A stretch of DNA of 64,000 bases from Syncephalis plumigaleata (Eukaryota; Zoopagomycota; Zoopagomycetes; Zoopagales; Piptocephalidaceae): the NCBI GenBank assembly GCA_025201365.1, contig JAIXMF010000015.1:1-64000 (forward strand). The letters are read 5' to 3'. The position numbers were made by a program, and so were the translations under genes. Below, one piece after another: positions 1 to 23,807 of the stretch; the stretch's first letter is position 1, and each line of letters begins with the position of its first letter. A model generated the notes under the pieces. It did not search any database and was not told the DNA's origin. It worked only from the letters and a program-made list of their open reading frames with translations.

Positions 1-532
1 AATGCCGGCAATACTTGGAATGTCAGCGTCACACGGAAACTTGCCTTGCCCTTCAAATGGCTTGACGCATAGTTTATCGTGTAGGCTGCCAATAATCCTA
101 TGGCCAAACCGACATTCTTCAAATATACCACACTGCCGCGTAACTTCCTCGGTGATATCTCCGAATGGTAAAGCGGGACAACCGCGTAGGTGATGCCCAC
201 GGCCAATCCAGCAACAATACGACCGATGTAGAGCATTGCTAGTCCATTGGCCGCTATCTGCAATATGCCGCCAATGAGGAACACGGCCGATGCACCGATA
301 ATTGTGTTCCTACGTCCGAAACGATCTGCAAACAATCCTGAGAACATTGAACTGAAAAAGCACCCAAAATGAAACTCGATGCTACAAATCCTTTTTGCGA
401 ATCATTCTTCCACTGGAAATGCTCGATGGATGCGGGCATTGTAAGGACACCGCTAATAACACCGAGATCATATCCGATATAGACGCCACATAATGCCGAT
501 GAAATGATAGCTACATAGAACACAGGAAACAT
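1..532 (-). CDS. MFS hexose-type sugar transporter A, partial (C-terminus beyond left edge)
   Basis: N-terminal half of a sugar-porter of the major facilitator superfamily, a 12-helix plasma-membrane protein that imports hexoses. Visible in order: TM1 with the GYDLGVISG motif, the loop HFQWKNDSQKGF, the inter-helix motif DRFGRR, GRIVAGLAVG, and PLYHSEISPRKLRG (the PESPR-like loop region). The start is the ATG at 530-532; a longer reading would need a non-ATG codon. The gene runs off the window at position 1. Reading changes frame once near 355, at a T5 run where T6 would restore GAFFSSMFSG. Unlike its three paralogues here it shows no intron just before the DRFGRR motif. It is closest by eye to the transporter at 22.4 kb. 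Substrate cannot be told from sequence. Confidence 0.85.
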
Positions 533-550
533 GGTTTCATACGGTAACAA

Positions 551-1095
551 AGTAATACTAATGATATTAGTGTGATAAAAATGATTAGAATGGTGCCGAC
601 AGAATAGTATTACTAACGAGTGTTCTATCGTAAAATGACAAATACAGAACTATTTAAATATATTCTAACAAGAAATACCAAAAGGAAAGTAAGCAAAAAA
701 GAACGGGAAAAAGAACGGGAATTGACAGGAAGAACACTCGTTAGTAGTATATCATAGCAACATAGTTCATACAGGTTAATAGTTTATTTTTCGCATGGTG
801 TGTACAGTTCATGTGATAGAGGGACGCGTACACGTTCGCATATGCGTAATGATAAAAAACCTGTTTATTCTCTTTTAATTCTCTATTGGTACGATTGTTA
901 CCATTGCCATTTAACCTTGGACACTACACGAGCAAACTTGTCATTATATTGGTTACGATAATACATAGGTTTTTACTTCTAATAAACTACATGAACAATT
1001 ATTGCAGTACGCGTGTCAACGATGTACCCGATTCTTGTATTTGACATGGTGATAGTCTTACGTATACTATTTGCATGTCTACTTCTTTCAATAAC
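551..1095. other. Intergenic between transporters A and B; promoter side of A
   Basis: AT-rich DNA upstream of transporter A and downstream of transporter B. The only structure seen is an inverted repeat, 611-626 against 731-746 (16 bp perfect, about 104 bp apart). No coding signal. Confidence 0.5.
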
Positions 1096-2604
1096 TTATT
1101 TTTCGATATACCTTTGCATATGCGTTGTCGTTACGTTCAATTGCATCGGCAGCTTCTCCAGGGATGTCTCCATTGTTTCCGGCAGATAACGATAGACCCA
1201 TAGTGCAACCAAAGCGTAAATGGCAGCGAGTACGAGGTAGGTGCCCCATTCAATTCTGCCCAATAGGAATGGTGCAAGTTGTACCATTAACAGCTTGACT
1301 AACCAGTACAACGAACATGCAAGTGATATGGCGCGTGAACGCAGCCTATTGGGTAATATCTCACGGGATAGATCCAGCCGACTATCCGCCAGCTCATTGC
1401 CCCTGCTATAATGACGATACAGGCCACGATTGCGTAAGCTATAGACAGCGCACTATTGTCAGGCATCGTTTTACGACATGCCGCCAATGTTGTGAGAATG
1501 ACAAATGCCACCGTCATGCCAATACTACCGCCGATCATGAGTGGACGTCGACCGAGTCGGTCAACTGTAAGCACGCCCACACCACTGGTGACAAGTAGGA
1601 TCATACCGATACCGCCTGTTCCTAATAGTGTCGCGTACTTGTCATTATCTATTCCGGCGGCACGTAGTATACCGGGGAAATAGTAGATGTTGGCGGTTAG
1701 TTCACTTGGTTGTTGCAGTGCAAGAATGGTCATGGTCACGATCATGTATCGTCGCATCTCACGTGAAAATAAAACACGCCAACTTCCACCTCCATCCGTA
1801 CTACCAAGACCAATGTTCATGTTGTCCATGCGATCGGCCAGTATGGCAACGCGCATCTCGTCAAACTCGCTGATAACTCGATGGTGTTCCGGTGGTAGGC
1901 CGTTTAATTTACAAAATGCAATATTCGCATCTTTATCATGGGAATGCGCCAACAACCAACGAGGAGATCGGGGCATTAGCATGACACCCGTAAGCATAAG
2001 CATAGCTATGCTGCTTTGAACGGCAAATGGTATCCGCCAGCCTATATCGTCACTCATGCTGCTACACAGGTAGTTTACCATGAACGCGGTAACAGCACCG
2101 ATCGCGATCGCGAAGGGCATGACGGCAACCATTGAACCGCGTAGTCGTGCTGGTGAGATCTCTGCAATGTACACGGTGCAATGGCGCATATCAAGCCGAT
2201 ACCTGCACCGGCAAGCGTGCGTCCAACGCAGAATACGGCCAAGTTTTCCGCTGCGGTCTCCATGCCACTTCCCGCAATAAATACACTAGTTCCCGCAATG
2301 ATGGATATTCTTCTACCGTAGCAGTCTTATTTTACACCCCACCGCCCAATATCTACACGTATTAGTTACATGCTACGTTACGGTCTTCATACTTACCAGA
2401 GAGCGTGCCTGATAAGAACGAGGCGAGCATTGCGGCTATCGTGAAACATAACGCGACGAGCCGTTCCATTGTTGGATCGTCAAGAACGATATGTCTCGTA
2501 AATGATGGCATGGTTCGAATGCCGCTAGCTGCAGCGGTGTCGAATCCAAACAAGAAACCGCCCATACTGGTGGCCATAACCGAAAACAACAAATGCCCGC
2601 TCAT
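1096..2604 (-). CDS. MFS sugar transporter B, divergent paralogue
   Basis: Two exons, 2397-2604 and 1096-2325, with a 71-bp intron falling exactly before DCYGRR, the same place as in two other paralogues here. Sugar-porter landmarks: GFDTAAASG in TM1, GRTLAGAGIG, YIAEISPARLRG, the MPRSPRWLL loop, DRLGRRPLMIG, and a PETME C-terminal motif in place of PETK. The usual QQxTGIN helix is degenerate (QQPSELTANIYYF), so sugar specificity may differ or it may act as a sensor or transceptor (inference). About 479 residues, normal for the family. Two frame changes, near 2175 (APVYIAEI expected) and near 1362 (PVEILP expected), each mended by one extra G. Start chosen at ATG 2604; a longer reading would use TTG. 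Confidence 0.85.
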
Positions 2605-3898
2605 CTCGCGAATACGGAATTGTATCAAGTCGATGAATCAACAACGAGAAGAAAGCAAGCAGACGTGCTTTTTTTGTTTAAATAATAATAATATAATGAA
2701 AATATAGCGACTTGTTAACGACAGATGTTCAAGAGCAATAGCAACAAACTGACGAGCAGTCTGGCAAATGGTGATCAATTTCATCGGCAATTTATTGGCA
2801 GTAAATTAGTAGCCAATTATCTATAAAAAAAAGTAAGTGACTGGAAACATTAATGCAACGCGGTTACCATGATATTAACCCAGTCGTCAATACCAAGTTC
2901 GCCGTGTAATAGTAACAGTTATCTGCGCGGCTTGGTGATCCCAAGCCTTAGGTTACAACTTGTGACGTCATTATTAATAACAAAGTTACTACATAAGTCG
3001 ATGTCGATTGCAGTCAACAACAGAATCCTTATTCGCTTGCGTATCCGTTGTAATTCCTATAATCATTCCTACTTGCTGTATGAGCATCGCATCAACATGA
3101 TGAATACATCCGTACATGGGCTGATTTAGTTTATGTAAAGAATTAGCACATACATATACACACATATATACACACACATACACATACACATACACAAGCG
3201 ATACAAAAATGGTAAATTCCATTAATTAACAACTATATATGTGAGTGGGAGTATGAGTTAGTCAATCATAATGACATTATTATTATTATTGCTAAGATAT
3301 TTATTATACAAATGGCACGATCGAGGCGGTGTCACTTTTAGTATGCGGCTCCCAGGTAAGAACAAAGCATAACGACTAATTCATCAATTGTTCCAAGAAG
3401 AATAAAGAATACGCATGCATGTGTATAGCATGATGGATAGGTCGACATACACCCATGTCACCCAACACTATTGTTAATATACCTGCATTCATTGTAACAT
3501 AATCAGCTTGTGGGGAACATCCAGTGTGTGTCTATAATTCGTCAAATGGATAACATACCGGCTATAAACCGGCTCTGCAACGGGAACCGCGTGAGTACGG
3601 TGGGGTCGTCTTTGGTGGTACGAATGCGACGTTTATCCGCGTGTGTTATACAAAAAGCAACAATGGCGCTAGCATATGGCGAAACTACATTCATACCATG
3701 ATTTCTGCATGTTATGCGTCCATCCGGTCGCTCGTACTAGTTGTATTTAAATATTGAGCAGCTAGTAGTCGCCGCGTCAAGCAACCCTATACTTGTTCTC
3801 TCTCATTATCGCCTCCTGTGCCATTCATTGCTGTTTATCTCATCTCGTCTTACTTTGTTTATCGTACACTCGCCTGTTCTAATTCGTTCGATATCACA
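2605..3898. other. Intergenic with a CA/TA microsatellite
   Basis: Divergent spacer between transporter B (-) and the microexon gene (+). Contains a CA/TA-rich microsatellite at about 3147-3198 and an AT-rich TATA-like stretch at 3746-3756, about 150 bp upstream of the next ATG, a plausible core promoter. No supported gene. Confidence 0.5.
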
Positions 3899-5614
3899 AT
3901 GAAACTCTTTGTCATTACCATTGCCTTGTTTATTGCTACTGTAGCTAGTATCAGGTCGACCTATTCAGGTCCAGTGCCGGATTTCGATTGTATGTCTTGA
4001 GCTTATTATTATCATTGTGAATAGTCAACTCCAACAAGTGACTATCTTGTAGCGATGCATGATGAATTCTTCCCTTCCCCAATTGATTGATCGCACATTG
4101 ATATTCGACTAACATTTACCTTTGCTTCATTAGATCGTAAGTAAACAAGAATAAAGAAAAATACCCCTACCTGTTTATTGTCCAAACGTAATGGCCGGAT
4201 TGATTATTTGACTAAGCAGTAAGTCACGCTAACCGTCATGTCATTCATTCCCTTACTAATTTTCTCGTACCTTAGTTGATAAAATGCATTAAAATCACAC
4301 AATACTATCACTAATTGATTACATCATATTGTTCATAATTTCCGTCGCTTTTCCACCGTAGTACACGTAAGTACCATTCATCGTCATGTCACTTCAGTGT
4401 AATAACTATTCCATGTAATCATGAACATGCTAGCTCGTAAGCATGCCAATGATAGAAGCATCGTCTAACATATACTAACCGTGCTACCATTTCCAACTCG
4501 GTTACAATTATGCCTGGCATAGCACGTAAGTCAATCATTTGCTTGCTTTTATTCGCCATACTAATGCTGTATAATATTCGATTAATAGCTCGTAAGCATA
4601 TCAATCACCGGAATATTGTCTAGCGTACTAATCGTGTTATCATTTCCAACTCATTTACGATTATGCCTTCCATAGCACGTAAGTCGATTATCTACTTACT
4701 TCTACCGGTCATACTAATTATTTACATGCTTATACGTTGATAGCTAGTAAGCATCATTATGATATATGCAATCTATAAATATATATAAATACTAAGCATT
4801 ATGTTTTTCTTATGTTTATTCAACAACTTCATCGATAATAGCACGTAAGTTTTAGAATCATGCATGCCATCCAGCCTACTGATCATGTCGTGATACCTCC
4901 TGTCATACGAATACATTATTAGCAAGTAGTACCTTACCCTTAGAAATGCATATATAATTTGTTATAAGCTGCTTACATGACTGCTTCATTTTTAGTCCGT
5001 AAGTCTACGGTTAATCTAGTCTATACGACAAACTGATCGTCATAATGATACCTGTACCACTATGCCTATCCCTCTTTAGAAAGTAAGATCTACACTAGTA
5101 TTACTGACTAGCTAATTTTGAACATCATTTGACATGAACCATACGCTAACTCGATAATCAGCTAGTAGGTTCTATACAAGAGTACCGCCATCACTGCTAT
5201 TAGCGTGTTAATTTATTCTCTTTTGTTCTCTTTTCGTACAACTTTCCCTACAAAGGGAGTAAGATGATTTGCAATATTTATATACATCTATACTATTTGT
5301 GAACTAACCGAAACATAACATTCAATCTAATGCCATCTCCTATTGCAATTAGAACCAGTGTGAGTATACACATTAGCGTACTTCATACCATACGACATAC
5401 TAATAGTGTATTATACCATGCAATCTAGTGCTCCACTTAGCAGTAAGCATCACGTATAAAGCAGTATAATGATGATCCATCAAGCTAATGATGCAACATG
5501 GACTTATCCGCATAATAATCGTTCTCTTTCAAACAGTGTGTACGTAACAATCGTGTGCGCAACTAGGCCTGTCTGTGATGAACTAACATTGCTCCATGTA
5601 GAATAAGCCGATGA
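3899..5614 (+). CDS. Secreted small protein encoded by a ladder of 3-nt microexons
   Basis: Exon 1 (3899-3989) encodes a 30-residue signal-peptide-like start, MKLFVITIALFIATVA..., then a GTATGT donor. What follows is a run of intron-like units of 63-95 bp (GTAAG(T/C)...CTAA(C/T)...TAG) separated by only a few bases: ATC 4134, TACAC 4362, CTC 4434, CAC 4523, CTC 4589, CAC 4676, CTA 4744, CAC 4842, CAA 4923, TCC 4996, AAA 5080, CTA 5162, GGA 5256, AACCAGT 5353, CA 5441, TGTGTAC 5537, and a last exon from 5602. Joining these gives tail YLHLHLHLHQSKLGNQSCVQ and then TAA at 5604. Two further possible 2-nt exons (CA 4217, TT 4276) would shift the whole tail to a proline-rich frame (YPFTPPPPPTPIQT...) ending at TGA 5612. 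The exon joins are prediction. A proline-rich or Leu-His secreted peptide is the likely product; its function is unknown. Confidence 0.6.
4434..4898 (+). repeat. Three tandem 155-bp units, each carrying two microexons and two introns
   Basis: Microexons CTC, CTC and CTA begin at 4434, 4589 and 4744, an exact 155-bp period, each followed by a CAC microexon. The introns after CTC in units 1 and 2 are clearly alike: both start GTAAGCAT, share a TTTCCAACTC stretch, and end ATTATGCCT then CATAG. The third unit is more diverged. The coding tail therefore grew by duplication of an intron-microexon-intron-microexon block. Confidence 0.75.
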
Positions 5615-6128
5615 TAGTTCGTGTAGATATATACAAGATGTCCAAGGTGCAACTAGTAACCTCCCCCCCCCCCCCCACGGACAAGAGCGTATTAATGAGT
5701 GGGTCCTCCTTAGCGTCAAGTCTCTCAAGTCCATGGCTCTACTTACAAGGTTGCGCGATCTAGTAATAATACATTATCCATTGATTGCTTATTTTAATTC
5801 TTCTATAATATCTCGTATTGAATAAATATACACGTTATTCATTCGCGATTACATTACATCGTAGCAACAGTATTAGCAATAATAATGATAATAATACGCA
5901 TGCTAGCCATTAATATCGATATATCCTTTAAACATTTTTATTTATTTATGAGCTGATGATTTGATTTGATTTGATTTGATTTGATTTGATATGCGTCCAA
6001 TGCCTCTCTTTTACAAACTAAACTGACAATGGTTCGCTTCGTAACTTCAATGTGATACGGATACATACAGTTATGGCATAGATAAAGAGAGCTCACGCTC
6101 TTTTTAATTAGATCTATGCCTGCAGTAT
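5615..6128. other. Spacer with a C14 run and a TGATT pentanucleotide repeat
   Basis: 3' flanks of two converging genes. A run of 14 C lies at 5663-5676 and a TGATT repeat (about 6 copies) at about 5958-5990. AATAAA-like signals occur near 5820. No gene seen. Confidence 0.5.
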
Positions 6129-6644
6129 TTAACAGCGAATAATGCCACGGGCCTGCATTGCTGGCACGTTGCCTTTAGCAATGCGGCCTTGTGTCGCCTC
6201 CAAGAGAGTCATCTCTGCTTGACGACGAATAGAGGCACGGATTTCAAGGAGTTCTGCAAAGTTGCAAAAGTTCAACTTGGCCGCAGGCAAAGAAGAACGG
6301 TCGTAGTCATCAGCGGAATGGGTGTATTCCACTTCTACATCCATGGCGAATTTAACTGATTTGCGTACACGCTCCTGGCGAGGTATCGCGCCATTGATGG
6401 CTGCCTTTGTGCGCATGCGAGCAAGAGCGACCGCGCGACCACGTACGGCGGCAATAGAGGAAGCATCGCTGCTATCGCTACCGATCGAGGAAGATGACTC
6501 GATGGACTCCGTGGGTGAAGGAGGAGGCTGCACCGAGATGGAAGCCGGTGTGTAGGACACGGCGAAATCCTTCACCGGGAAGTTCATGGGGAATGCGGTG
6601 GCCGTGTTGGACACAGCGCAGGTAGAGATGGCCAAGCAAGACAT
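6129..6644 (-). CDS. Small uncharacterised protein with KSVKFA...YDR motif
   Basis: A single-exon reading frame of 171 residues with an ATG start. The N-terminal half is Ser/Pro-rich low complexity (residues about 35-65), followed by a basic stretch (VRGRAVALARMRTK). A conserved-looking block at about residues 93-120 reads RKSVKFAMDVEVEYTHSADD then YDRS; this V(K/R)FA...S(A)xxYDR pattern recurs in fungal proteins, and KSVKFA resembles the RVxF docking motif for protein phosphatase 1. The C-terminus is a likely amphipathic helix. No enzyme domain is recognised. The leader on the minus strand is strongly pyrimidine-rich. PP1 binding is an inference from the motif only. Confidence 0.6.
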   Translation of the reverse strand: MSCLAISTCAVSNTATAFPMNFPVKDFAVSYTPASISVQPPPSPTESIESSSSIGSDSSDASSIAAVRGRAVALARMRTKAAINGAIPRQERVRKSVKFAMDVEVEYTHSADDYDRSSLPAAKLNFCNFAELLEIRASIRRQAEMTLLEATQGRIAKGNVPAMQARGIIRC

Positions 6645-9600
6645 TTTAAGTTAAAAAGAAGAGAAAACAGAGAAATGGATAGAACACGAACGGAATTCAA
6701 CAAGCCGACTGGATGCGGTGCTAGAGTGTAAGAAAACGAACGTGAATAACGTGCGACGACGACGACGACGATGTGTAGTTATTGAGTGGATGTGGTCGAC
6801 CGGCGAACACCAAGTTGCAGTAATATGGTGTGGGTGTGATGAATTGAGTTGGTTAACAGCAGCAGTAGCGGCAGTCGAGTCGAGTTGAGCCGAGGATAAC
6901 ACGCACAGTTGCAAGCGTTGAAATGATACGATAAACGTAAGCAATAGTAGTAGCAAGCAAGCTATAATAGATTAAAGAATAGATTAGTATCAAAAATGAA
7001 TTGATATTATAGCTAAGCGGTAGTAGTAGTAGTAATAATAAAGCAAGGATGATATAATGATGAATTGATGATATTGATGATGATGATGATGAGGATGAGA
7101 TGATGAGATGATGGATTAATGATGACAATGACAATTAACTAGCTTGTAGTTGGATAATAGAACAAGCAAACGATGTATGTTTCTTGTAAAGTGTATGCAG
7201 AGTGAGAAGAAGGTACAAAGAGAGTGCGGCCGGTTATCAAGCAGTACACTGGATTAAGCGAACGCTAAAAGGAAAGGGAACAATTATAGATGTTACACGT
7301 ATGCACGCACACGTACACGCACACGCATAAACTAGACGGAATAGGCAAAAAAAGAAAGCGAGAGAGCGAGGGACACACGCACACGCAGTTGTACTGTCAA
7401 AGAAATCAAAAGCGCACCAGGCGTAAAGTAAAGATGAGCGAAGGTGAAGCAATAAAAGCAAGAAGCAAGAAAACTAGTATATTATAATAGGTAAACGAAC
7501 TACTATTAGTATACGAATGAAGAATAGAAGAAGGAGTAGGAGGAGGAGCAAGTTCAGTTGTGTCAGGAGTGAGAGTGAGAGAGCACTAACTGTGTATATA
7601 TAATATTATTAGAAGCACTAGGGGGGGATAGGAGGAGAAAGTGATCACGGCAGGTATCAAGTGTAGTAGTGGAAGGAGAAAGAGTTTAACTGACAGGATA
7701 GACGAAACACACGAGCAGAATAGGAGGATAAAAATAGAACGACACTGGTTGCTATTTAACAACTGGTGGTAGCAGTAGTTTAAGATGAGGGGAAGTTATA
7801 TAAGACAATAAAGCAAGCGAGCAAGTATGTGAGAGAGAGACAACGGTTTAAGCTGTGTAAGCAGTGCTGTGTTGAAAAACGGAGTTGAAAAGGTGTTCCA
7901 GAAATCAAGGCGAGATCAAGAAAAGGCAAGTATACTGCCAAGTGTCAGCCTATCGAAGAATCATGGGGCACATCCTCATAATTTCTTCCGTACAAATAGA
8001 CGAAACAACTCCACGGACTGTTTTCAAACTCAAACCATATCACAAGGATATGTTACATCTGCATTGATCAGAGTCCCATATATCCTCATCATCCGCACAA
8101 AGCATAGCATCACATTATCAATCCTTGTTTATATCTCTCGGTTCATCGCTCCATAATAATATTATACTATTGCGGTGCTTACCTTGATTGACGAGTACCT
8201 CGAAGGGAACAGAAACCGGACAAAGGTAAAGGTGTAGATACTGCGAGTGGGCGTTGTTGTAGTAGTAGTAGAAGTTGTTGTTTTCAAGGGAATAGACTCA
8301 CTATTGTTAAAAAAAGTCGTTACAAACAATGGTTAATAAAGAGATGGAAAATCAATTTCAAATAGATTCGACAACAAATAATGATGAGCGGATGAAGAGA
8401 GGGAGAGCGAGAGAGAGAGAGCGAGAGGGATGTCAAGATTAGCCAAAACAGAAAAGCCGTGCGTTTGAAAATCGCTAGTTACAATCAAATGTTCAAAGTA
8501 GAACAAAGCATAAAAACGATGATACTAGAAAGGATGATATCCTTGTTGTAGTGAAAGGAGTGAGGATGGCGGTAATATAACAAAAGATAGGTAAGAAGGA
8601 TATTCCGTTGCCGATCTACGAGAGAGAGAGAGAGAACGAGAGCAAATACACACTTGCTAAGAGTGATGCTAATGTGCTGCACGGTAAATCAAGCAGACAA
8701 TACCGTAATAGTAGGACTGACAATGTACCAAAATACAAACACCTATCGTAAGAAAGAGAGAGAGCGTGTATATCAAACTAGCAAAGTAATGATGATGATG
8801 ATGCGCCTATACAAAGAGAGACAAGTAGATAGATAATTTCGCAATGAATGAATAATATGCTCGTCCACTCGAATAGATCATGGACAATCCTTGACCAAGC
8901 AAATGAAGCGTATTGTGCGATAAGTGGTGTATTGAAAGAAGCAGTACTACTACACTAGGGTAAGCAGTGGAAAGATAGAGGTACAAGACGAGTATGAAGT
9001 AATGCAATAAAATGTAAGTGTGGTTGCGAAGATACAGAGGATAGGAAAGTGTTAACGGGAATGCAGAAGAGAGAATGCGAGTAACTTGCAAGGGAAAAGT
9101 AGGGAGAGAGGAAGAAGAAGAAGCAGCAGCAGCAACGTAGAAAGGAGAATAATAAACGAGCACGGCAACACGGTAGTGGTATAGATAGGCAATGGTACTA
9201 GGCTAGGTGGTTAGACAAAGCAAATTGAATGGTACACTGTTGTTTTAAAATGAAAGTGATGTATCTTTCATTCAACAAACGAACAAACAAGCAGATGAAC
9301 TCAAAGGCTATGAAGTGCAATCACATGATACTATTTTGCAACAATACAACTCGTTCCGGCCTATATCTATTCCACATAGCTAGTGTTACCAGCATGGTTG
9401 TAATAATAATAATAACAGTAATAGTAGTCATTACTTTGTTAAACAAAGATAATAATAGCACTACTATTAGAACGGGGTATGGCATAGAGGAAAGCAAAAC
9501 AAAAAAGACACACGCACGCACATGCATACGATACACAAATGAATAGCAATAGCAATATTAGTAGGATGTTACTTACCAGAGCAATATTCCTTATGAATGA

Positions 9601-18237: not shown

Positions 18238-18623
18238 ATATCTACTCTATATTAATTGCATTATCAGCCTATTGATTGATTACTGCTAGAATGAAAATAT
18301 GTAGTGGTTGCTTGGTCTTTCTTTAATAATAAAGATGGTCGGGAGATTTGATATGAATTAATCAGCCAGCAAACTATATCAGTAGTAATAGTAGCCACTG
18401 TATATATTATACACGACATTACAATTAAATGGAGAAAGCGAAAGAAAGACTAGCTTGTGCATACTTTTTAGACAAACAATTACTTATTTTTTATTCAATT
18501 ATTAGTTTGCACGTAACATAATAGTGCAATAGCACTCACATACGCAGGAATCAAAAAACGATAAAGAGAAGGGGTTTCGTCGTAGTAGTAAGAAGACGAG
18601 CGGAAAGTGGATTATTAGTTCGT
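18238..18623. other. Convergent 3' spacer
   Basis: Spacer between NDUFA8 (+) and transporter C (-). AATAAT/ATTAAA-like polyadenylation signals on both strands. Nothing else seen. Confidence 0.4.
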
Positions 18624-20126
18624 TTAGTGACCACCGGCCGATTTCATGACTTGAGCCTCGAGTGGCGATGACACGCCAGCTTGTCCGAATACCACGTCGA
18701 TCTCCTCGAGGACTTGTTCTTTGTCTCGGGTACGCAGAAGAACACAAAGGTGCACATGATTATCAAGAAGGCGACGAGGATCAAGTAGAACTTCCAGCCA
18801 ATGGCTTCCATGAGCACTGGCGATAGAAGACCGATAAGGATGTTGAACAACCAGTTGGCCGCGGTAGTGATGGCCACTGCCTTGGCACGAATACGAAGCG
18901 GGTAGATCTCCGATGGAATAACCCAGCAGATGGGACCCCAACTGTAGGCGAAACCGCCCACGAAGATGCACATCATGACGAGGCAGACCCATGGAACGGC
19001 TTGGTTAGCGAAGCCAGTTGGCTCGTAGACTGCAATGAGCACGGCGAGAATGGTGAGGGCGGCACCCATGACAACATCGCCACTTAGCAGTAAGGGACGA
19101 CGACCCACTCGATCGATGAAGTACATGCCGGGCAATGTCATGATAACATTGACGAAACCGGTGAGTGCGGTACCCAATAGCTTAACGCCCAAACTGGCGA
19201 AACCGGCACTTTGCAAGATACGAGTGGAGTAGTACATGACGACATTGATACCGGTCAATTGCTGGAACATCTGGAGGAGCACACCGATAGCGACGCGACG
19301 CCACATGCCATTGGAGATGAGATCGCGCCAGCCACCGTCACCGATTTCTCGTTCAATACGGATTGAATCCTGGATTTCGTCAAGTTCCTGTTGGACAGAG
19401 TTGCCGACATTATCGCGCACGCGCATCAAAGCGGTCTCAGCCTCCCTGACTCGACCATGAGCCACCAGCCAGCGGGGAGAGTCGGGCAGGAATAACATGG
19501 CGGCAATCATGCCGACCGAGAATACCATCTGGATACCGAAGGGAATACGGAAAGCCTTCTCACCCTCAAGGTAGGAAGTGCCGAGATTGAGGAGGAAAGA
19601 AAAGAAAATACCGAGTGTAATGGTAAGTTGTTGCGTTGTAACGAGACGACCACGCTGCTCCTTGGGCGCTACCTCGGATAGGTAGAGTGGCACCACAGTG
19701 GATAGGATACCGATGGATAGACCAGCGATAGCTCTACCGGTGATGAGCACTTCAATTTGAGTGGCGACAGTTTGAAGTAATGCACCGGCAGTGAAGACGA
19801 CAGCACCGGCAATACAAGAGAGCTTACGACCAAGACGATCTATTGAACGGTAAAAAGGAAGAGTTAATAACAATATCACATTATAATAATAATAGTAAGA
19901 TAAAATACTAACCTGCTATATAGGAGGTGAGTAGGGCACCGATCAAACAACCGATTGTCAATGAGGATACGACAAATCCAACGAGCAATTGATCATGGTC
20001 AATTGGGAATCGATCCTTGAAGGCTTGCATATCGATACAGCCACCAATTACACCAATGTCGAAGCCGAATAGAAAACCGCCTAGGGCCGAAGCCGCGGCC
20101 GTCATGGCCATGAATGCCTTGCCCAT
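18624..20126 (-). CDS. MFS hexose transporter C (canonical)
   Basis: Two exons, 19913-20126 and 18624-19839. Every sugar-porter landmark is present: GFDIGVIGG in TM1, DRLGRKLS at the exon 2 start, GRAIAGLSIGI, VPLYLSEVAPKEQRG, LPDSPRWLV, QQLTGINVVMYYS (the sugar-binding helix), DRVGRRPLLL, PSEIYPLRIRAKA and PETKNKS. With one base restored near 18716 the frame runs on as LEEIDVVFGQAGVSS and stops at 18624, giving 476 residues; without it the protein would end in an unrelated tail. This is the most conserved transporter in the window and the best candidate for a genuine hexose/H+ symporter or facilitator. Confidence 0.92.
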
Positions 20127-22360
20127 GATTTGATATAATCAATATCGAGCAATGTTAGGCGTGGTGTAAGTAAACGTTACGTTAACCAAGAAAAAAGAAC
20201 TCGTCACAACAATCAAACACCACACACACACACTTGTTGTTGCTGTTTTGGTAGTTTTCAACGAATAAATGATGTTTAAAAGTGATGCACGTTAATAGAT
20301 GGGCGTGAATGTCACACCACTTCAAGAGTTGGATAAATGAATGAACGAATAAATTGATAAATAAATAAATAGATAGTTGGATAGACGATATAGCTGCAGA
20401 GTAGTATCCGTCGACAAGAGATGGCGTATAGATGGAAGAAAACAAAAAGTGCTCGTTTCAAACAAACCGGCTTCGCTTTGGCTCTCTTATAGATGGGGGG
20501 ATGAAATGCGCGAGTGGCATTCGACACCAATCAGCAGACCAGTCATGATTGTAGAGAAACAGGAGTGTCGGCTAATTGGAGCGATGCCAGAGAACAAGAG
20601 AGAGAGGGAGGGAGAGTAAGAGAGCGTGGGCGAGGAGAGCAAGGAAAAGATAGGGCCTAGGTGATACACCTGTATGCATCCGCCTATGCTCTACTCTTTA
20701 CAGTAGTGATGGCAGTGACAGTTGCCGCTACCACACCGAATAAGAGACGAACAAGAGGACAGTTTCGCGGGGTTAATCTACGAAAAATTATAACGGTTCA
20801 TGAGATGCCAGCCTACTAGCCAAGGCGCAACTATCGTCGTGTTCCTTGCTCTTCATGTTTTTTCTTCTTACTACAGCGTTTACAGGTGTGTCCCACGTGC
20901 AGAATACGCTTTATGTTATAACCTAATGATGTGGCAGGGCTTATATTACTTGTACAGGACACAAAGTAGGAATGTGTTAGCAAACTTTATTCAAACAATG
21001 CTACACCTATGATGATGCTCATTCCATTTAACTACAGTGCCAATGCTGTTAGTACTACTTAATTGTATCGTACAAACTGATAAATCAATAAATGAATGAA
21101 TGAATGAATGAGCAAGTGCCAATGACGATTTGTATTCCATGTCACGATCTAAAAATGGATACATGTCCGAAATGATGCCCATACCGTACATTATGATGAG
21201 AACAAGTTGCTTTGGTTAATTGTCAAATGCTGCGGGTCATGCTTCTTTTCTGCTTTCCCCCTTTCTTCGCTCATTTACCAATAAGCCGGTTATGTCTAAT
21301 GCGTATGCATATTGTTACTGTAACACTGTGTATATCATTTACGAATACAATAATGAGAAATGAGTATAGATGATGATAAATAAAAATATATTGCTATAGA
21401 ACAAAGAGAAAGTGTGTGACTGGGCGAGATGCCATGCTGGACTACAATCAAATGAATGGGTACATGTTTAGCATCTCACCTATCGTGTAACTAGAGCCTC
21501 GTCTTCTTCTCTTTGTGAAGAAAAAAGCAACCAAGCATTGTGTACCCACACCAACGCATCTCAAAAGATAATCTGACGACACGGAGATATGTCAATGGGA
21601 CAATGCTTTTTTAAGCAACACATGTAGAATAGTGACCTTTTCTACGACCTATTCTTCTACTTGAACAAATATAGGCCGAACCTGGGCAGAGTCGCGGTAT
21701 ATTCCTACTTGATACGTAGCATTCGTACTAATTGTGTAGATGATCAGGCACACACGCAAGTGTACAATTACCTGTACAAGTTGTAATTCACCGATGACTG
21801 AGCTCTTTTATTGTAATGATAAATGGCCTCGCTCCTTCTTCATTGATATACGTATTACTAGATAGGTTGTGTATGGCACGAAGATTAATATTCTATAAAA
21901 TAGAAGGATTTCACCGAAAAGTCACTTTATCGTCATTAGTAAGTAATGAAATTTGTTAATCATCGACATTGCTTACGTTAACGTATTATGACCTATCTCG
22001 TGACACTTGCTAGTATTGCTCTATTCGAACATATTAGCATGGATATTGTCTTAGATACCATCAGTAGTGGATAGTAATCAATCGATAGTCATAGCGTATC
22101 CGCAATTCATTATTCCCTATAAACCTACCCTATTTCTAATAGTGACAAGGTAAGGACAAAGCCTTGGCATAGTCAGTGAGCGTTGCTGTTATGTGCATAA
22201 TAACCGGAAGAGATGACGTACATAACACGTATTCATGCTAGCATCGGTACTCCTTATACCATTGCTTTCTCATTTCATATTCTCCTGTAGATACATTTAG
22301 TCTGTCTTCTTTTCTTTATTTATCCTTTATCGTATTAAATAGGGTTATAATTAATTAATA
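20127..22360. other. 2.2-kb divergent promoter between two sugar transporters
   Basis: Shared upstream region of transporters C (-) and D (+), much longer than the usual spacers here, which suits complex regulation (inference). Contains short CA and GAAT microsatellites (about 20221-20233, 21091-21111). No supported coding region. Confidence 0.45.
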
Positions 22361-23807
22361 ATGCAAAGTACACTTTTACTTGCTACAGTATCAGCATCAT
22401 TCACTGGTCTTTATCTCGGCTATGATTACGGTGTTATCGGTGGATTCTTTACTTTACCAGCATCCTCGGCGTATTTCCAATGGCCAAATGATTCGGCAAA
22501 GGGATTTATCGCATCGAGTTACGTGCTAGGTGGACTGACATCGACAACGATAGTAGGACTGATGGTTGGTAAGTAGTGCATTGACATCTGCGCACTGTAA
22601 GTTGATAATGACCATACTCAACTAGATAAGTTGGGTCGTCGTACAACATTGCTGATCAGTGCTGGTTTCGCACTACTCGGTGGATTATTACAAACGGTGG
22701 CCGTCAACCTAGCCATGATATACACGGGTCGTTTCATATCTGGTCTTGCCGTTGGCATGTCGCTAGTGGCGGCGCCCCTTTACATTGCAGAGATTGCACC
22801 GAAGCAATTGCGTGGTACCTTAGGCTATACCATACAGATTAATATTGGATTGGGCACAGTAGTTGCTTCCACCGTTAGTTATGGCGCTATATTTATCAGG
22901 GCAATGCAGTTTTCGATGCATACTTGCCATGCAAATCATTCCCGCTTTCGTTATTGCAACGGGTATGTGGTTTTCGCCAACATCACCACGTTGGCTTATC
23001 CATAGAAATAGGGAGAAATCGGCGCGTTACAACCTGGCACGACTTCGAGGGTTAAGCGTGGATGACCCGCGTATTAGCGAGGAAATAGAGTCGATACAAC
23101 AATCTATCAATATGGACAATGACGCCGAACAAGCTGGTTGGCGTGTCATCATTGACAATGGCATGTGGCGACGTTTATTGCTGGCTTGCGGTGCCGGTGC
23201 CCTACTACAACTCAATGGTATTAATGCCGTCACCTATTACTCGCCCGATATTCTTAGGATGTCGGGTATTACGGATCCCGTACAACAGCTGGCCCTCACT
23301 ATTGCCACAACTGTATCCAATGTGGTAGGTGCCATCATTGGCACAACCATCGTGGATCGATATGGTCGTCGTGCCATTATGGTGACGGGTGGTATGCTGA
23401 TGGGTGTGGCACTCGTTGCCATTAGCGTTCTTCTGGCTACGCACGACGAGAATGAACGTGGTCGCACGACAGGCTACAGTGTACTGGCACTGGAATGCCT
23501 CTATATTGCTGCATTCGCGTTTAGTTGGGGTGCTATCACTTGGATCTACGTGTCGGAGATATTCCCGCAATACGTACGTGGCAAGGCGATGACGGTGGCG
23601 GCCATAGTATGCTGGACGTGCAACTTTTGCGTATCTCAAATATCACCACTGCTGCTATCATCCATCGGTTGGGCGACATTCGTTATCTATGGCGGCATTT
23701 GTCTAATTGGTAGCACATGGGAGTTCTTTGTGTTTCCAGAGACAAAGCAACAAAGTATCGAGGATATTGCCCGTATGTTTACGAAGAAACCACGTAATCC
23801 AGCGTAG
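22361..23807 (+). CDS. MFS hexose-type transporter D
   Basis: Exons 22361-22568 and 22626-23807, with the intron again just before the DKLGRR motif. Landmarks: GYDYGVIGG, the loop FQWPNDSAKGF shared with transporter A, GRFISGLAVGM, APLYIAEIAPKQLRG, SPTSPRWLI, a shortened sugar-binding helix LLQLNGINAVTYYS, DRYGRRAIMV, VSEIFPQYVRGKA and PETKQQSIEDIA. One frame change near 22895 at a TTT run is mended by removing one T, the only clear insertion-type case here, giving 462 residues. Plasma-membrane sugar uptake is the family role; the sugar is not known. Confidence 0.9.

Follow-up and report, generated by a model that had tools for sequence, protein, structure and literature searches.

Predicted runs of single-codon exons in a putative secreted-peptide gene class of the fungus Syncephalis plumigaleata

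The micro-exon genes (MEGs) of schistosomes encode secreted products, carry a signal peptide in the first coding exon and contain exons with lengths that are multiples of three. A different arrangement is found at the ratchet sites of recursive splicing, where an AG is joined straight to a GT with a zero-nucleotide, non-coding spacer. The microexons of MEGs are typically 6–36 bp in size, according to the available part of PMC12998952, while the aphid bicycle genes, in the accessible text of PMC9168663, contain around 17 exons on average, the internal ones almost all in phase 2. Exons of 1 nt in Arabidopsis APC11 and Fusarium CYP621A and of 3 bp in Drosophila homothorax, as given in excerpts of PMC12940212, PMC4674806 and PMC7392893, show that exons of 1–3 nt can be spliced, but these are isolated exons in ordinary genes, unlike the uninterrupted runs (“ladders”) described here. 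A functional fungal microexon also occurs in Trichoderma Xlr2, although in the portion of the literature available it is a single, regulated one, again unlike the ladders. Syncephalis is mycoparasitic, according to part of a review (PMC10386755), and no description of ladder genes was found in the accessible sections of open-access literature on microexons, tiny exons, Syncephalis, early-diverging fungi and Zoopagomycota.

The DNA analysed (the window) is a 64,000-nucleotide stretch of contig JAIXMF010000015.1 of S. plumigaleata (GCA_025201365.1). A preliminary description had placed in it a gene with a 91-nt exon encoding a signal peptide, followed by a ladder of eleven 3-nt exons between compact introns. 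The length and position of exon 1 were confirmed, as were the eleven triplets (CTC to GGA, 4434 to 5258; Table 1), each with AG before it and a GT donor after it, and the size of 63–95 nt for the gaps preceding them. The branch-like motifs were only partly recovered: across the eighteen intron-like gaps of the gene, CTRAY lies 20–50 nt from the end in twelve, while of the other six one has CTRAY at 16 nt, one has TTAAT only and four (4137–4216, 4367–4433, 4747–4841 and 4926–4995) have no such motif. The ladder itself is real, with ten strict steps (YAG-NNN-GTRRG) in 3899–5614 against a mean of 0.06 and a maximum of two in 2000 dinucleotide shuffles of the same interval; elsewhere in the window, strict steps are scattered (ten on the + strand and nine on the - strand). 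The window further contains several clustered sugar-transporter genes or pieces of them, at 1–2600 and 18600–23800, recognised by Pfam Sugar_tr or by similarity to one and the same protein. One protein of the window is 100% identical to an S. plumigaleata sugar transporter over 97% of the query.

Table 1. Pieces of the predicted ladder gene in the window.
Feature	Position	Strand	Remarks
Exon 1	3899..3989	+	Begins with ATG; 30 codons plus one nucleotide, leaving phase 1 at its end; N-terminus hydrophobic (MKLFVITIALFIATVAS...), signal peptide judged by eye
Intron	3990..4133	+	144 nt, GTATGT...GACTAAC...TTAG
3-nt exon ATC	4134..4136	+	
Possible 2-nt piece CA	4217..4218	+	Between AAG and GTAAGT; doubtful, may be skipped
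5-nt piece TACAC	4362..4366	+	Similar to the family's phase-switch exon of 5 nt: TACTT (L041), TACCT (L032), TACCA (L042)
3-nt exon CTC	4434..4436	+	Preceding intron without branch-like motif
3-nt exon CAC	4523..4525	+	
3-nt exon CTC	4589..4591	+	
3-nt exon CAC	4676..4678	+	
3-nt exon CTA	4744..4746	+	
3-nt exon CAC	4842..4844	+	Preceding intron without branch-like motif
3-nt exon CAA	4923..4925	+	Weak donor GTAGTA
3-nt exon TCC	4996..4998	+	Preceding intron without branch-like motif
3-nt exon AAA	5080..5082	+	
3-nt exon CTA	5162..5164	+	Donor GTAGGT
3-nt exon GGA	5256..5258	+	Acceptor AAAG
7-nt piece AACCAGT	5353..5359	+	
2-nt piece CA	5441..5442	+	
7-nt piece TGTGTAC	5537..5543	+	Alternative: TGT with donor GTACGT
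Last exon, start	5602..5607	+	AATAAG; TAA in one of three frames

The pieces had also been thought to join into one open frame, closed by a stop codon of the final exon, and this did not hold. With no piece left out, so that the 2-nt CA at 4217 and the 5-nt TACAC are both kept, a TAG arises across the CTA at 5162 and the GGA at 5256. Omission of this CA gives an open frame (YLH-LHLHLHQSKLG) that stops at the TAA in the exon at 5602, and omission of both CA and TACAC gives another (PPPPTPIQTR). The frame thus hangs on two phase-shifting pieces and is ambiguous, and codon-usage scoring gave no decision between the three frames (the list for frame 2 includes its own stop codon). A protein database search returned no homologue of the two alternative products, and no paralogue or allele of the gene was found in the 32.6 Mb, 383-contig assembly. 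The sole match in the window to the intron profile of the family described below is weak (E 0.039) and lies inside the ladder. Together with the 2-nt pieces and the missing branch motifs, these features lend some weight to the reading, appreciable though not our preferred one, that the class is real but this locus has decayed or become a pseudogene, with pieces that no longer give a functional frame. However, ten strict steps persist, exon 1 is open, and a second short ladder without any match to the intron profile (L040) indicates that divergent members of the class exist. The window gene is probably such an outlier, one that is old or has diverged within a large class of ladder genes. The other modelled loci have the same architecture, far cleaner and with codon-like triplets, and it is as a gene class that the proposal of fungal secreted-peptide genes made of single-codon exons stands, while for the window gene itself both frame and splicing are conjectural.

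The pattern is abundant and strand-asymmetric throughout the genome. A search of the whole 32.6 Mb for three successive AG-NNN-GTAAG steps, 45–75 nt apart, yielded 1,611 triples (904 + 707 by strand), against four (4 + 0) for the reversed pattern, and a spacing of 4 nt instead of 3 yielded none on either strand (0 + 0; reversed control: 6 + 2). Combining a CTAAY branch motif with a step gave 2,206 matches (1,104 + 1,102), against 118 (73 + 45) when reversed. None of these totals is a count of genes, since one triple can overlap the next and certain small contigs carry loci a second time; the repeated loci are 95–99% identical copies and were taken as alleles. Contigs C70, C189, C338, C263, C370 and C88 are 1–5% diverged copies of parts of C1 or C2, suggesting that two haplotypes are present in parts of the assembly. 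The signal exon gave 150 scored matches among 163 candidates genome-wide, its link into ladders being seen for the fetched loci. In twelve ladder loci, which had been picked by the 3-nt pattern, the distance from YAG to GTAAGY is 3 nt in 212 cases, 6 nt in nine and 9 nt in fifteen, with none at 4, 5, 7 or 11 nt, whereas the opposite strand gives zero to five at each spacing. No match to the ladder pattern was found in separate collections of viral and genome contigs.

The modelled loci of the main type share one order. A signal exon (MKFSA...VEA..P.L.RR) is followed by small exons, between one and eleven in number, and by a switch exon of 5 nt, which changes the phase from 1 to 0. Next come a ladder of five to about 60 3-nt exons between homologous introns of around 80 nt, an exon in which the frame meets a stop (usually xxx-TAA-GCR) and a common 3′ exon. 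Fifteen splice models, built blind to frame, contain 400 internal exons, 339 of which are 3 nt long; those that are not multiples of three are the 5-nt switch exon (ten exons) and seven pieces of 1–2 nt. The 266 ladder introns measured have a median length of 80 nt and mainly GTAAGT donors, and 233 of them contain the branch motif, with the branch A at a median of 43 nt from the 3′ end. For an ordinary gene of the window, a sugar transporter, an intron of around 73 nt with a likely branch around 25 nt from its end was read. No consensus RNA fold better than column shuffles was found in 60 ladder introns. A TATAAA box lies upstream in L039, L043, L044 and L051, the four loci for which the reading extended to that region, and by inspection the hydrophobic N-terminus is kept in ten aligned ladder-gene products. 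A Pfam search with seven products returned no family above cut-off; sub-threshold matches were those of P0126 to the N-terminus of the mating-factor alpha precursor (E 0.31) and of two products to DUF families.

Several loci vary this plan. The giant ladder of L034 (reverse strand, 380–7100; 76 modelled introns, with 58 strict steps in a first scan, one an artefact) has the 3′ exon of the family, lacks an evident signal peptide and reads like a basic protein. Another ladder gene, in L042 (reverse strand, about 2700–2920), has an exon 1 of repeated RRDHVPPAAFRS-like blocks, suggesting that several Kex2-processed peptides may come out of one precursor. In the paralogues L037, L044 and L051 alike, the intron after a Trp exon (TGG) is of the GC-AG type (GCAAGT). 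A different style of array is seen in L056 (reverse strand, from about 1097), where phase 1 exons of 6–12 nt (for example CTCCACCTC and CTGAAGRNG) encoding proline- and glutamate-rich repeats lie upstream of a short 3-nt ladder.

The ladder genes resemble the MEGs in their many short exons, mostly multiples of three (as in the 3, 6 and 9 nt spacings above), in their occurrence in a parasite and in forming a multigene family. Their predominant exon length, however, falls below the 6–36 bp stated for MEGs in the part of the literature available, and they are set apart by an architecture in which the exons stand in runs between homologous introns, in a fungus. With the bicycle genes and the megacycle gene, as far as the accessible accounts describe these, they share large family size, rapid evolution, a putative effector role and many unusually small internal exons, the megacycle gene containing more than 100 microexons. 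The bicycle genes are, however, aphid genes with exons in phase 2, as portrayed in those same accounts, while past the 5-nt exon the fungal ladder exons are in phase 0, one codon each, in seven open models.

These seven belong to eleven loci with the canonical exon 1, and their models, though frame-blind, read without interruption from the ATG to the last ladder exon, where the stop lies. In L037, L039 and L043 the scoring took 3 nt where 5 nt were needed at the switch exon; L037 and L057 each contain one 2-nt piece, and their frame is broken if it is kept; and the model of L033 is not open owing to three single-base deletions in exon 1, which is intact in its allele L045. Among eight further exon-1 loci, six have a frame that stays open until a stop, and four of the six are alleles of earlier loci; no stop is reached within the fetched stretch of L057, and one intron was missed in L051. 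Outside these counts are L049 and L055, where the stretch begins inside the gene, L036, where the model region began inside exon 1, and L034, L042, L040 and the window gene, which have another exon 1.

The triplets after the switch exon contain no stop in 330 codons from sixteen loci (L034, L042, the window gene and two 2-nt pieces left out), whereas positional base composition predicts 7.0. The two other frames contain three and 39 stops in 314 codons, and because one wrong frame is itself stop-poor, the test rests on the expectation of 7.0 and on the other frame. When pre-switch triplets are mixed with the ladder, the counts are 0/335, and 8/320 and 36/320 in the other frames. A lone TAA in a first count of triplets (1/266) was read as an overlapping match inside GCA-GTAAGTGAG of L034 and rejected. 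Six loci (L037, L044, L051, L054, L055 and L058) encode a CC pair with each cysteine in its own exon; a cysteine precedes the pair in the five that are uncut at their start and another follows it in five of the six (L051 ends earlier), with TGC and TGT interchanged at the conserved positions. Moreover, the same stop codon is TAA in L035 and TGA in its allele L046. The ladder triplets behave as codons. This bears on a reading in which each ladder is one long intron removed stepwise, with AG-NNN-GT as ratchet-like re-splicing sites and the triplets absent from the mRNA. Acceptor and donor do almost adjoin at each step, as in recursive sites, and the ambiguous frame of the window gene would suit such a mechanism. 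Discarded triplets, however, would hold stops, the paired cysteines and the stop codon would not be expected to be kept among paralogues and alleles, and known ratchet sites are spacer-free, whereas a 0-nt spacing occurs once against 212 at 3 nt in the twelve loci. We consider this reading very improbable, and the triplets are better read as exons.

A GenBank gene model lends indirect support to the exon reading. The protein P0127 (BDF22DRAFT_685769, partial) has its best exon-1 match on C362, the contig from which L058 was taken. Of the 43 chained 3-nt exons modelled in L058, P0127 contains 38, in the same order, and by reading also the same 5-nt switch exon; its second exon extends into a stretch modelled here as intron. 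Four of the five exons missing from P0127 have donors other than GTAAG (GTAGG twice, GTAAA and GTAGA), suggesting that it may be an ab initio model; the remaining one belongs to a pair of neighbouring TGT exons. Three more relatives of the signal exon (P0138–P0140) carry the source label ‘jgi’ alone; taking this label to mean metagenome data, the family seems not to be limited to this assembly. P0140 continues unbroken past RR and is a possible candidate cDNA.

The introns of fourteen loci fit a single 81-nt profile, and in the young arrays (five of fifteen loci) neighbouring introns are 0.76–0.79 identical, against 0.63–0.66 for units more than eight apart; in the other loci this trend is weak or absent. 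The young arrays are clear tandem repeats, and it could be supposed that the ladders are non-coding repeats with splice-like motifs arisen by chance. Conservation of the sequences around the arrays (5′ end, signal-peptide-like exon, 3′ exon), together with spacing fixed at 3 nt and codon-like triplets, makes this supposition scarcely credible. Introner elements are homologous introns found at single sites in many unrelated genes, and the shared profile, together with the flat relation of similarity to distance in older ladders, would also fit introner-like mobile introns inserted at codon boundaries rather than duplication of units. We regard such an origin as unlikely, since in a search of the window and of loci that had been picked for their ladders all 532 profile matches in 24 modelled loci fall inside the modelled ladder gene (not counting L050, with ten matches and no model; L040 had none), the single match in the window falls in its own ladder, and adjacent units are most alike in young ladders, near-identical ones lying side by side in one allele pair.

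In this pair, L046 has two adjacent CTT units with introns matching intron 7 of L035 at 1.00 and 0.97, while L035 has adjacent GGT units, the introns of which (11 and 12) both match intron 12 of L046 at 1.00. The alleles thus differ by intron-plus-codon units, and whole residues distinguish their predicted products, AVTGLGGKGG for one and AVTGLLGGKG for the other. The simplest account would be two fresh duplications, with loss from a longer ancestor as the alternative; under either, this one case would be a change of one residue at a time, in frame. Across five other allele pairs, four of 335 nt changed in the small exons, none in a phase-0 ladder codon, against 157 of 9,082 in the introns; the L044/L049 pair covers part of its ladder, and L035/L046 was left out of the sum as its units are rearranged. 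Where introns are 85–90% identical, the identity of the triplets is 0.47, against 0.27 at random (122 pairs). Positive selection is not claimed, since shuffling of units could yield the same divergence.

Judging from the DNA, which strongly supports the ladder-gene structure, S. plumigaleata appears to have a large gene family in which nearly every residue of the mature product occupies its own 3-nt exon. We propose that a phase-1, signal-peptide-like exon and a few small exons would be followed by a 5-nt exon resetting the phase to 0, and then by tandem units of an 80-nt U2-type intron and one codon, leading to an exon with an in-frame stop and the common 3′ exon. The spliceosome would work by intron definition on uniform short introns, each with a GTAAGT donor and a TACTAAY branch 43 nt before YAG. 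Splice sites 3 nt apart could hardly be occupied at once, and thus the introns are most likely removed one after another and their codons joined serially. The product would be a secreted precursor from which cleavage at Arg-Arg, presumably a Kex2-like site, releases a short, sometimes cysteine-rich peptide, and gain or loss of whole units would add or remove exactly one residue without ever shifting the frame. That the genes are spliced, translated, secreted and turned against fungal hosts is what we infer from the letters of the genome; a role in attack on such hosts would fit the secretion, the RR processing site and the rapid divergence. We consider this explanation as a whole likely, with the window gene as a divergent member of a class in which each exon of the mature part supplies a single residue. 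On balance we also favour, with less assurance, a view of the ladders as codon-cassette genes, in which each mature residue would be a 3-nt exon in a unit of around 82 nt, unequal exchange or duplication between near-identical introns would add, remove or reorder residues in frame, dozens of such exons would be joined serially, and in-frame skipping could be a source of variants.

Annotation can easily overlook or garble such genes, and similar classes may hide in other genomes. Confirmation by transcripts would make the ladders an extreme case of exon recognition, with dozens of consecutive exons too short to be recognised by splicing factors on their own. Should the proposal be true, introns would serve as recombination spacers through which a protein gains or loses single residues, a testable route to faster diversification.
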